Shown piece after piece: positions 10,830 through 14,333 of a stretch of 64,000 nt of DNA. The notes beneath the pieces were generated by a model. That model saw only the letters and a list, made by a program, of their open reading frames with translations. It had not been told where the DNA came from and did not search any database. Origin of the DNA: Lautropia mirabilis. Its GTDB lineage: Bacteria; Pseudomonadota; Gammaproteobacteria; Burkholderiales; Burkholderiaceae_E. Each line of letters starts with the position of its first letter. The first letter of the stretch is position 1. Where the stretch lies: NCBI RefSeq assembly GCF_900637555.1, contig NZ_LR134378.1, positions 1,126,001 through 1,190,000 on the forward strand, given 5' to 3'. Both the position numbers and the translations under genes were made by a program.

Positions 10830-10880
10830 AAGTGAATGGCAGCAGCCGTTCGTTCGGATCAACCATCAAGGAGGAAGCCA

Positions 10881-12113
10881 ATGTCGATCATCCCCAGGAA
10901 TATCCTTGTGGCTCCAGCTGGGTTCAAGGAGTCGTTGGACGCCGGTACCGTGGCGCGTGCCATTTCGGCAGGCGTGCGGCGCACCATGCCGGGAGCACGT
11001 ATCAAGACCGTTCCGGTGCCTGATGGAGGCGAAGGAACAGCGCATATGCTGGCCGAATCGACAGAGGGACGCCTGGTGCATCGCACCGTTACTGGTCCTG
11101 TAGGACAGCCTGTCGAGTCGCATTTCGCCTTGCTCGGCGGCAAGGCACAAGGGGTGGCTGTGGTGGAAATGGCTGCTGCAGCCGGCCTGCGCCTGGTGCC
11201 GCGAGACATGCGTGATCCTACCCTCACCACGACCCGGGGTGTGGGAGAACTGATACATGCCGCGCTGGAGCATGACATCCACACCATCTTGATTGGTTGT
11301 GGTGACTCCGGCACCAGTGATGGAGGCCTGGGAGCATTGCAGGCTCTGGGTGTGCGCATCGCCGATGCCCAAGGCAGGGAGGTTGGACATGGTGGTCGCT
11401 GTCTGGCGGATGTGGCGACATTGGACATGAGTGGGCTGCCGTCGGCGTTGCGCGATGGAAAGGTAAAGATGGTGATGGCGCTCAACGCACATAACATCCT
11501 GACGGGTGAGCGCGGCGTGGCACGGGTCTTTGGCCCCCAGAAAGGGGCTTCTCCACAGCAGGTGGCCGAACTGGAAAGAGGCTTCGAAAACTGGGCACGC
11601 AAGTTGGCAGAATACGCACTGCCACAGGCACGGGACATCGATTTTGCTCGCGGTGCGGGTACGGGCGCATCGGGTGGTCTGGGTGCAGGGCTGGCTGCCA
11701 TCGGGGCGCAGCTGGTGTCGCGCTTTCAGGCACTTCTGGACTCCGGGCTGGCCGGTTTCGACATGAATGCGCTGCTCAGAGGGGCAGACCTGGTCATCAC
11801 CGCGGAAGGGGCCATCGATTTCCAGACACCCCGTGGCAAGGTTCCTGCCGAGATCGCCCGGCGGGCTGGTGAGCTGGGGGTGCCGGTTGTTGCATTGGCT
11901 GGCACGCTTGGCAAGGGGGCCCAGGATGTCTATGACATCGGCATCGATGCCATCGCGTCGATCGTGCCCATTCCGATGAGTCTTGAGCAGGCCATCGAGG
12001 CGGGTGAGCGGCTGCTGGTGGAGGCCACGGAGCGTCTGATGCGCACCTTGCTGCTGGGAGCGGCCATGACCGTGCGCAGCGCGGATGTCAAGGAGACCGC
12101 TGCGGCGTGGTGA
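10881..12113 (+). CDS. Glycerate 2-kinase (GarK/GlxK family)
   Basis: Phosphorylates D-glycerate with ATP, feeding it into glycolysis as 2-phosphoglycerate. The 410-residue protein shows the family landmarks: LVAPAGFKESLDAGTVARAI at the N-terminus, VPDGGEGTAHMLAE, GCGDSGTSDGGLGALQALGV, FGPQKGAS, GAGTGASGGLGAGL and TAEGAIDFQTPRGKVPAEIA. The start at 10881 has an excellent AAGGAGG site 6 nt upstream; an in-frame ATG at 10836 would bury that site inside the gene. It is the last gene of the small protein/sensor/permease/kinase operon. Length slightly exceeds the usual 380 residues. Confidence 0.92.
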   Translation: MSIIPRNILVAPAGFKESLDAGTVARAISAGVRRTMPGARIKTVPVPDGGEGTAHMLAESTEGRLVHRTVTGPVGQPVESHFALLGGKAQGVAVVEMAAAAGLRLVPRDMRDPTLTTTRGVGELIHAALEHDIHTILIGCGDSGTSDGGLGALQALGVRIADAQGREVGHGGRCLADVATLDMSGLPSALRDGKVKMVMALNAHNILTGERGVARVFGPQKGASPQQVAELERGFENWARKLAEYALPQARDIDFARGAGTGASGGLGAGLAAIGAQLVSRFQALLDSGLAGFDMNALLRGADLVITAEGAIDFQTPRGKVPAEIARRAGELGVPVVALAGTLGKGAQDVYDIGIDAIASIVPIPMSLEQAIEAGERLLVEATERLMRTLLLGAAMTVRSADVKETAAAW

Positions 12114-12158
12114 GCCAATGGGGAGGGCATAGCGCTTTCGGGGAAGGCCCGAGGGATC

Positions 12159-12776
12159 TCACCCTCTCGCCCGGATCGTCCGGAATGTCAGGTTCACGCG
12201 CGGCTGGGTGACGCGCGTGCTTTTCATCAGCGCATGCTGCCAGTGGGTCTGCGTCTGGCCGCGCATCACGATCAGCTGGCCGTGGTGCAGCAGCATCTCG
12301 ACCTTCTGGCGGGTCTGGCGGTGGCGGAACGCAAACTTGCGGGTGGCCCCGAAGCTGACCGAGGCAATCACCGTCTCCGGCCCCAGCTCGGCCTCGTCGT
12401 CGCTGTGCCAGGCCATGCCCTGAGTGCCGTCGTCGTAGCGGTTCAGCAGGCAGGAATTGAAGGAGACCCCCACCCGGGCACTCACCTGGTCGCGCAACGT
12501 CCGTAGGGGAGGGGCCCAGAGGCGTGCCCGATGGTTGACGCCTGAATAGCGGTAGTCGAAGGCTTCGTCGCCATACCACGCCACACGGCGGGCCGTGACG
12601 ATGCGCTTTCCGTAGAGCTGGACCTCGTCATGCTGCCAGGGCACTTCGGCCAGCAGCCAGGCCAGCATCGCATCGGCCTCGGCGGCAAACACCGTGCCAT
12701 GGTCGTTGACGACGCCGTCGCAGGGCAGCAGGTTGATCTGCGGATCGGCCGCGTCTTCAAAGAGGGAAAGCGTCAT
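12159..12776 (-). CDS. AlkB-type 2-oxoglutarate/Fe(II) dioxygenase (alkylated DNA repair)
   Basis: Oxidatively demethylates N1-methyladenine and N3-methylcytosine in nucleic acids. The 205-residue product contains the iron ligands H-x-D (GMAWHSDDEAELGP) and a distal His (THWQHALMKS), with the 2-oxoglutarate-binding RVNLTFR near the end. The NSCLLNRYDDG segment and overall length resemble the ALKBH2/3-like bacterial group more than E. coli AlkB. Start at 12776 (MTLSLFEDAAD) is chosen from homology; longer readings run through the 16-bp tandem repeat upstream. It converges on the glycerate kinase gene with 45 bp between stops. Confidence 0.9.
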   Translation of the reverse strand: MTLSLFEDAADPQINLLPCDGVVNDHGTVFAAEADAMLAWLLAEVPWQHDEVQLYGKRIVTARRVAWYGDEAFDYRYSGVNHRARLWAPPLRTLRDQVSARVGVSFNSCLLNRYDDGTQGMAWHSDDEAELGPETVIASVSFGATRKFAFRHRQTRQKVEMLLHHGQLIVMRGQTQTHWQHALMKSTRVTQPRVNLTFRTIRARG

Positions 12777-12787
12777 GGCGGGCAGAT

Positions 12788-12819
12788 GCTTAGGGTTGCC
12801 CCCGCTTAGGGTTGCCCCC
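12788..12819. repeat. Perfect 16-bp tandem duplication upstream of the AlkB-type gene
   Basis: The unit GCTTAGGGTTGCCCCC occurs twice without interruption (12788-12803 and 12804-12819), starting 12 bp upstream of the AlkB-type start codon. It lies in the 5' leader and may be a replication slippage product. A change in copy number would alter the leader or promoter spacing. Confidence 0.85.
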
Positions 12820-12959
12820 AATGGAATGCCTGCGTGCAAAGCAAGACAATGCAGCCATGCGGTCTAGACCAGCCGGACATGGAGACACCCGGCGGCAGTG
12901 AGAGGAGACCCGGCAAGTACTGCACTAACTGAGCCGGACAAGAAAAGCGACCGCAGAAA

Positions 12960-13020
12960 GAAAAAAGCCCGCACGGATAAGCGTGCGGGCTAATCCACCA
13001 AAGGAGGAGGTGGAGGAGAC
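12960..13020 (-). ncRNA. Candidate small RNA 1: CCUCC loop hairpin plus intrinsic terminator
   Basis: A transcript of about 60 nt is predicted from a sigma-70 promoter (13027-13055) to a strong terminator (12961-12991). Its 5' part reads GUCUCCUCCACC, and a small stem UCCACC/GGUGGA (about 12994-13014) exposes UCCUCCUUU in the loop. CCUCC pairs with Shine-Dalgarno sequences, so the RNA could block translation start sites. The layout (5' CUCCUCC, small hairpin with C-rich loop, GAUUA linker, terminator) recurs in a second element at 13252-13321. It recalls anti-SD small RNA families such as the CcsR RNAs of Rhodobacter and the tandem sibling RNAs of Neisseria; that comparison is from memory. 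No start-to-stop reading frame of note. Confidence 0.65.
12961..12991 (-). terminator. Rho-independent terminator of candidate small RNA 1
   Basis: Perfect 10-bp stem AGCCCGCACG/CGTGCGGGCT (12966-12975 with 12982-12991) and a 6-nt loop, followed on the minus strand by TTTTTT and then CTTTC. It acts on transcripts coming from higher coordinates. Confidence 0.9.
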
Positions 13021-13026
13021 GAATGA

Positions 13027-13055
13027 ATTCTATGCTCTGGCTTCGGTCATTGCAA
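13027..13055 (-). promoter_or_regulatory. Sigma-70 promoter for candidate small RNA 1
   Basis: On the minus strand TTGCAA (13050-13055) is followed by a 17-bp spacer and TAGAAT (13027-13032). Transcription would begin near 13020, at the first bases of the CUCCUCC segment. Upstream at 13076-13095 lies an inverted repeat TATCTTT/AAAGATA (6-nt centre), and at 13114-13129 GAGGCAT/ATGCCTC, either of which could bind a regulator. Confidence 0.7.
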
Positions 13056-13251
13056 GAGGTTTTTGCGCCGTTCCGTATCTTTTATGTTAAAGATAGTCAA
13101 TTTGTGCGCTCAAGAGGCATGAATGCCTCATCCCACGGGCCGGCTGCCCGCCAAGGCAGCAGATTCAGGGGGTCGATTCATCTGAGCCGTGCTATCTGAT
13201 TCGTGCTATCCGACCGCGCCGCGAGTCGTATCCGCCCTTGCGGCGTGGCCT

Positions 13252-13321
13252 ATCAGAAAGCAGCACGCCGACACGCAGGATGTGCGTATCGGCGTGGTGA
13301 TCCCCGAAGGGGGGAGGAGAC
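13252..13321 (-). ncRNA. Candidate small RNA 2: sibling of RNA 1 with CUCCUCCCCCC motif
   Basis: Minus-strand element starting GUCUCCUCC like RNA 1. CCCC-UUC-GGGG forms a short stem, GAUCA follows (GAUUA in RNA 1), then a long near-perfect hairpin: CACGCCGA/TCGGCGTG (13264-13271 with 13289-13296) extended by ACGCA/TGCGT (13273-13277 with 13283-13287) across one mismatch. Downstream comes CTGCTTTCTG, compared with CTTTCTG after RNA 1. The U-tract is weak and no clear -35/-10 pair is visible, so it may be processed from the 3' end of the glycosyltransferase mRNA (13476-14333, same strand). Shared order of elements at about 300 bp distance supports duplication of one RNA gene. Confidence 0.55.
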
Positions 13322-13475: not shown

Positions 13476-14333
13476 TCAGCCTGCCTCGGCGCCCAGCACC
13501 CTCTTTTCCAGCACCCGCAGGATCTCGCTGTCCTGTCGGCTGTCGAACTTGCGGGCAAAGAGCTTGTCCGAGCGCTCCAGACGCTCCCGGTCGGCCAGCG
13601 TGAACACCTTGGGGTGCGATCCTCCGGCGCTCCAGTCCTCTTCATGCAGCAGGCGGTTTTCCACCGTGTCGGCATGGGGAGAGTTCATGATGAAGCTGTG
13701 CGGCAGCACCTCGACGGGGCGGTAGCCATGCCTCAGGGTCTTCACCCAGCGGGGCAGGTGGCTGGATTCGATGAGGTGCTGACAGAAGCTGCGGGTAAGC
13801 GCCATGTAGGGGCGGCCACCCACGTAGCGGGCCTGGCCCAGATGGCGCGACCAGCGGTCAATGCGCAGTTTGGGCACGTTCCAGCCGCTCTTCATGAACG
13901 GGGGCTCCAGCCGGATGCGCTGGATGCGGGCGTAAGGGTCGTTCCAGACCTTCTCGGGCTCCACGATGTCGAGGAAGTTGCGGCCTTCGTTGGCTGCAAA
14001 GAAGGCGCGGATCTCTTCCTGCGACTTCAGCGGAAAGTCCTGGCCGCTGAGGTTGATCAGCACTTCCCAGGGCTCGGGGCGTGCCAGCAGTTCACGGATG
14101 CCGTCCAGCCGGGCCTGCATCAGGCTCCAGGACGCCCAGCGCATGTCGCGCGCCGGGGCAATGAAGACATTGGGGTGCCGACGCACCACGGCTTGCAGGG
14201 CCGGCTCGCTGCCGGTCAGCCCCTTGCTGTCGGGCATGACCAGGTAGACGTTGTCGGGGTGCTGGATGCAGTAGAGCATCTGGGCCAGCTGCTCGGGCTG
14301 CTGGTGGGCAATGATCAGATAGGCAAGACGCAC
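13476..14333 (-). CDS. Core-2/I-branching-like glycosyltransferase (GT14-type)
   Basis: A 285-residue cytosolic-type glycosyltransferase without TM helices. Family features are the N-terminal YLIIAHQQPEQLAQML, DNVYLVMPDSKG, the WASWSLMQARLDGI segment and INLSGQDFPLKSQEEIRAFF. These match bacterial members of the branching-enzyme family, which transfer GlcNAc or xylose-type sugars onto glycans. The acceptor is unknown: no polysaccharide cluster is adjacent, and it may modify surface glycans or glycoproteins. Start ATG at 14333. The two small-RNA candidates lie immediately downstream on the same strand, so the last one might be cut from its mRNA. Confidence 0.8.
   Translation of the reverse strand: MRLAYLIIAHQQPEQLAQMLYCIQHPDNVYLVMPDSKGLTGSEPALQAVVRRHPNVFIAPARDMRWASWSLMQARLDGIRELLARPEPWEVLINLSGQDFPLKSQEEIRAFFAANEGRNFLDIVEPEKVWNDPYARIQRIRLEPPFMKSGWNVPKLRIDRWSRHLGQARYVGGRPYMALTRSFCQHLIESSHLPRWVKTLRHGYRPVEVLPHSFIMNSPHADTVENRLLHEEDWSAGGSHPKVFTLADRERLERSDKLFARKFDSRQDSEILRVLEKRVLGAEAG

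Follow-up and report, generated by a model that had tools for sequence, protein, structure and literature searches.

An RF02278 small RNA of Lautropia and a predicted PhaR operator core at the promoters of its relatives

RNA 1, the small RNA studied here, is of an already catalogued kind, being a member of Rfam family RF02278, and it is highly probable that it acts in trans by blocking ribosome-binding sites, that its relatives are controlled by PhaR through an operator that has decayed here, and that the neighbouring element, RNA 2, is not its sibling. Both elements lie in the window, i.e. the whole 64-kb stretch of Lautropia mirabilis DNA analysed (Table 1), and all letters quoted for them in a previous sequence-only reading were found on the minus strand. 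RNA 1 itself being catalogued, what matters is the operator core at RF02278 promoters. In the mechanism we propose, RNA 1 would be made from its own sigma-70 promoter, starting at or next to GUCUCC and ending at an intrinsic terminator; its 5′ tail and CU-rich loop UCCUCCUUU would pair with purine-rich ribosome-binding sites, probably with Hfq, and translation of the paired uptake and catabolic genes would be lowered. In relatives, the -35 box would lie inside a PhaR operator, and the RNA would rise during carbon storage, when PHB granules titrate PhaR; in this genome, the decayed operator would leave the promoter probably constitutive or otherwise controlled, and RNA 2 would be a hairpin behind the glycosyltransferase gene.

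Table 1. Features of the RNA 1 locus in window coordinates
Feature	Position	Strand	Basis
AlkB-like 2OG-Fe(II) oxygenase gene, downstream of RNA 1	12159..12839	-	Pfam PF13532
RNA 1, RF02278 small RNA; predicted to start at or beside 13020	12960..13020	-	Rfam
Terminator hairpin, followed by T-run	12966..12991	-	predicted fold, covarying stem pairs
First hairpin, stem UCCACC/GGUGGA and loop UCCUCCUUU at 13000-13008; second of two predicted pairing sites	12994..13014	-	predicted fold, conserved
Unpaired 5′ tail (GUCUCC); first of two predicted pairing sites	13015..13020	-	predicted fold
Predicted promoter TTGCAA-17-TAGAAT	13027..13055	-	sigma-70-like site search
Candidate PhaR operator core, decayed (TGCAATGAC), overlapping the -35 box	13046..13054	-	7 of 9 core positions
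RNA 2 candidate; likelier a hairpin close to the 3′ end of the glycosyltransferase mRNA	13257..13321	-	fold, custom model
Core-2/I-branching glycosyltransferase gene, upstream of RNA 1	13476..14333	-	Pfam PF02485

RNA 1 scored 60.4 bits against the RF02278 model (cut-off 50) in a full-length match at 12960-13021; the family is entered as 'Betaproteobacteria toxic sRNA', also called 'double-hairpin RNA'. The sequence-only reading had rightly placed an anti-Shine-Dalgarno small RNA in a Burkholderiales genome; its suggestion that the RNA was possibly undescribed has to be given up, members having been studied in Burkholderia cenocepacia, Herbaspirillum and Bordetella. RNA 1 is 61 nt long and consists of GUCUCCUCC, a 6-bp stem (UCCACC/GGUGGA) closed by the loop, a GAUUA linker, a 10-bp terminator hairpin and a T-run. 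Its fold had a z of -7.3 and none of the shuffles folded as well; the signal is far beyond chance. Alignment of 18 homologues revealed that the letters of the tail and of the first stem are nearly invariant and that the terminator stem covaries, with GUCUCC, which corresponds to Site 1 in Bordetella S17, invariant throughout. The promoter and terminator claimed for RNA 1 were also recovered, since TTGCAA-17-TAGAAT was the sole sigma-70-like site within the 1.3 kb searched and the 10-bp hairpin is followed by a T-run.

RNA 1 and its promoter were kept in all nine Lautropia genomes searched, and hfq was present in each of them. The RNA was near-identical in the eight other genomes, the remaining spacer DNA being unalignable; in the promoters of these eight congeners, TTGCA and its spacing to the -10 hexamer were constant, and the hexamer was mostly TATAAT, with TAGAAT or TATTAT in some. 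The glycosyltransferase gene, the RNA region and the AlkB-like oxygenase gene are all on the minus strand; by tblastn, the first adjoins RNA 1 in eight of the nine Lautropia loci, and the alkB gene is also downstream of RNA 1 in L. dentalis. When the latter species (loci L069 and L079) was compared with window positions 10836-12839, the RNA was found beside one alkB gene (71% identical), and the glycerate-kinase-like neighbour (98%) was located at another place, where it adjoins a match (89%) to the C-terminal 133 residues of alkB; as judged from these alignments, the arrangement is a rearrangement adjoining RNA 1.

A covariance-model search of Burkholderiales genomes for the layout, which had been put forward as a check, detected RF02278 in 71 of the 74 genomes from the taxonomic family, with 68 of them above the cut-off, and in 55 of the 120 genomes sampled from the order. 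Throughout these genomes, pairs of copies less than 1 kb apart occurred only in G031, where a tandem pair, ~310 bp apart, was found among eight copies. A subtype, many members of which carry GTCTCCTCCTCCAC (L201, L211, L212, L215, L216, L220-L228), was without the PhaR operator core described below and was located 24-87 nt past the stop codon of a small gene whose product ends in ...DPRVxAxxxAAxARxEW..., as if released from its 3′ UTR. A viral contig (IMGVR_UViG_3300045107_000843, locus L297) contained an RF02278-like RNA near one end of the viral sequence available, which may be host flank; carriage by phages was rejected, as only one of the 27 pattern matches in viral contigs had the full hairpin.

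When promoters were compared, the relatives showed the pattern TTGC(A/G)N(T/C)GCA in the -35 region. We examined upstream DNA from 173 distinct RF02278 loci (98 from the taxonomic family and 75 from the rest of the order), which are related, so that core counts are not independent events. The core TGCRNYGCA was present within 110 nt upstream, mostly exactly at the -35 box, in 67 of the 98 loci of the taxonomic family (shuffle mean 2.1, maximum 8), and was found over the same distance in 29 of the 75 others (shuffle mean 1.75, maximum 7); its density was 0.52 per 100 bp within 110 nt versus 0.016 in the DNA flanking these loci. The core started at -35/-34 in 40 loci, and another 27 had it at -63 to -59; in these 27, a leader and a more distant promoter precede the RNA, and the cores are therefore again at a -35 box. 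One or the other position was occupied in 61 of the 98 loci, compared to a mean of 0.25 and a maximum of 3 in 300 sets of dinucleotide shuffles. At least one RF02278 copy with the core was found in each of the 16 genera of the taxonomic family, and in a search at 20-25 nt, the best -10-like hexamer started 22 nt past the core start in 63 of 69 loci of the taxonomic family. With copies trailing a small gene and copies of the GTCTCCTCCTCC form set aside (15 flagged by script, L195 wrongly, and L030, L037, L200, L202, L206, L218 and L219 by eye), TGCN3GCA was found upstream of every locus of the taxonomic family outside Lautropia.

Other arrangements were seen elsewhere in the order. Twelve RF02278 loci from other families (L156, L167, L240, L250, L253, L255, L256, L259, L271, L273, L275 and L276) had instead an inverted repeat, TTAGANAATNCTAA, at -45 to -56, which is perhaps the site of another regulator. 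Genomes G031 and G128, both from one other family, had seven to eight RF02278 copies each, including one tandem pair, and at several of their loci (L155, L235, L236, L241, L263 and L277) a TGCRNYGC core was located over the -10 box, not the -35 box.

PhaR is the candidate reader of this core. The PhaR/PhbF operator TG[N]TGC[N]3GCAA is supported by footprinting in Herbaspirillum (PMC3206438). In Ralstonia eutropha, the PhaR site is YTKNTGCRNYGCANMAR, a copy of which lies next to the -35 box of phaP1, and PhaR represses until PHA granules sequester the protein (PMC12849132); in S. meliloti, TTGCATTGCACA-like PhaR sites have been described, and the promoter of MmgR, a small RNA, has a site as well (PMC12542648). 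The mapped promoter of B. pertussis S17, with a -35 box of TTGCAT and a 17-bp spacer, is compatible with the core. We found phaR in 67 of the 74 genomes of the taxonomic family, including the window's own, and at least one core upstream of each of the seven phasin loci recovered in Lautropia; no core was found upstream of the Lautropia phaR genes, which were checked beside the phasin loci. Since PHB granules titrate the repressor away, the RF02278 RNAs with a predicted PhaR operator are probably storage-responsive, like the PhaR-repressed rhizobial MmgR. It is likely, in our judgement, that the Burkholderiales RF02278 RNAs form a standing part of the PhaR regulon, in which PHB granules would free the -35 boxes and the RNAs would lower uptake and catabolic genes, control of the window's copy being weakened or lost.

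It is unlikely that TGCRNYGCA at these promoters is read by a regulator other than PhaR or reflects a promoter preference only. PhaR binding to RF02278 promoters is a prediction, the core is short and its upstream half, TTGC, is usable as a -35 box; however, among 48 promoters chosen for TTGC alone, 39 kept the second half, GCA, although it is located in the spacer, and information dropped to near zero beyond it, indicating that the core is more than a -35 box. Agreement with footprinted PhbF and tested PhaR sites, and presence of the same core before the recovered Lautropia phasin genes, also argue for PhaR. This link was not found in the texts on double-hairpin RNAs, S17 and PhaR or by full-text searches, and as most subscription papers were outside these searches, its novelty is not certain; the upstream motif reported in 2017 for the Burkholderia RNAs, which three of the four B. 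cenocepacia members share, may be the same as the PhaR core.

In the window itself, the core TGCAATGAC has four mismatches to the 17-nt consensus, and about half of random 110-nt window stretches reach the same level of match. With 7 of 9 core positions retained, PhaR control of the window RNA may be lost, and the promoter is predicted to be no longer strongly governed by PhaR. Among the nine Lautropia genomes, the core was intact in two, retained 8 of 9 positions in four and 7 of 9 in two, and was most decayed, with 5 of 9, in G002, a 99% complete genome in which neither a PhaR nor a phasin match was found; five other genomes of the taxonomic family without a PhaR match keep the core, their assemblies being incomplete or fragmented. 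From this graded decay and the state of G002, the genus seems to be losing PhaR control of the RNA. In two Lautropia loci with an 8-of-9 core at -35 (L021 and L022), a second, intact core was noticed ~190 nt upstream of the RNA.

The sequence-only reading had regarded RNA 1 and RNA 2 as tandem siblings, as in Neisseria, in which case RNA 2 would be a diverged copy or be processed from the glycosyltransferase 3′ UTR. The parts are present, namely GUCUCCUCC, CCCC/GGGG, GAUCA and a perfect 14-bp hairpin; their order is that of RNA 1, GUCUCCUCC is identical, the fold is strong (z = -6.4), and the shared 9-mer GTCTCCTCC is somewhat unusual, as it occurs only three times on the minus strand in 64 kb. 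RNA 2 was also the second-best match in the window to a custom model of the 18 homologues, with 15.9 bits (E = 0.012) versus 68.5 bits for RNA 1, RF02278 copies within 3′ UTRs do occur in the taxonomic family, and G031, from another family, has a real tandem pair. However, RNA 2 had no match to RF02278 even at E ≤ 10, fell under every family cut-off and is devoid of the CUCCUCC loop seen in RF02278 members; a search for sigma-70-like sites found no promoter for it, and its hairpin is followed by CTGCTTTCTG, with no proper T-run. The expected conservation in related genomes, which held for RNA 1 (9/9 Lautropia), failed for RNA 2, as it was absent from the equivalent spacer in the eight congeners; in three of these, other long inverted repeats, read by eye, occupy the same spacer, where the terminator of the glycosyltransferase gene is expected. 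Sibling status is thus borderline and without conservation, and true tandem siblings are improbable; given the lack of an RF02278 match, the borderline model score and the missing promoter, T-run and conservation, it is likelier that RNA 2 is a hairpin close to the 3′ end of the glycosyltransferase mRNA. A search for RNA 2 as a repeat gave no second copy of the 91-nt stretch in its genome.

For the function of RNA 1, pairing with ribosome-binding sites and metabolic effects are known from other species, and the biochemistry of PhaR comes likewise from published work. RF02278 members were described as 'toxic small RNAs' of B. cenocepacia, inhibiting E. coli when cloned, and were later renamed double-hairpin RNAs; their predicted pairing partners are ribosome-binding sites in carbon and amino-acid genes (PMC5688073), and their levels rise in glucose medium, starvation and biofilms (Sass et al. 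2017, PMC5688073). Herbaspirillum has four members (PMC7011215), and Bordetella S17 depends on Hfq and acts as a direct repressor of a sigma-54 activator (PMC11722255). By analogy with these members, the most likely role of RNA 1 is to reduce initiation of translation on chosen mRNAs. A search of the nine Lautropia genomes for targets by near-perfect complementarity gave few matches, at most one per genome, which counts against this role, and the 16S tail of this genome was not found within the 7-kb stretch examined. A broad growth brake acting on many ribosome-binding sites with no chosen target set, for which the toxicity of cloned members, the growth defect caused by ncS27 overexpression and the CCUCC in the RNA 1 loop (the core of the 16S anti-Shine-Dalgarno) could speak, is hardly to be expected, as ncS27 slows growth on some carbon sources but not on others (PMC10987360) and S17 changed a defined gene set with no similar toxicity in E. 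coli.

Among known systems, ncS03, ncS05, ncS27 and ncS62 of Burkholderia share with RNA 1 two hairpins, two CU-rich unpaired sites and an intrinsic terminator; they differ in number, with three to five copies per genome, explicitly not in tandem (PMC5688073), versus one over the cut-off in this genome. S17 of B. pertussis resembles RNA 1 in its 5′ region, its two pairing sites and its promoter, but S17 arises by processing of a longer transcript, RNA 1 begins directly beside its own promoter, and the neighbouring genes differ. The proposed likeness to Neisseria stands as a resemblance: NmsRa/NmsRb (NgncR_162/163) have the same CU-rich double-hairpin layout and metabolic targets, but they form a tandem pair, and RNA 1 reached only 35 bits on the NmsRb model (cut-off 52); tandem homologous copies of this type were not found in the window, RNA 2 being unconserved and unmatched by RF02278. 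No CcsR model was among the Rfam matches at E ≤ 10, and Rfam may have none. A parallel in wiring would be MmgR of Sinorhizobium, repressed by PhaR (AniA), a short regulatory RNA with a PhaR site, such as is predicted at most RF02278 promoters of the taxonomic family. It belongs to a different, alphaproteobacterial RNA family (RF00519; RNA 1 scored 19.1 bits, cut-off 41), and its promoter has a PhaR site, whereas the window's own has a decayed core. If the proposed link is true, the PhaR-MmgR wiring of alphaproteobacteria would have been rebuilt around another family of RNAs. Switching by PhaR at the -35 box would directly answer the question left by Sass et al. 2017, who stated the regulator of double-hairpin RNA accumulation as unknown (PMC5688073), and would connect a widespread RNA family that blocks ribosome-binding sites with carbon storage, a link that also has practical interest where bioplastics are produced.
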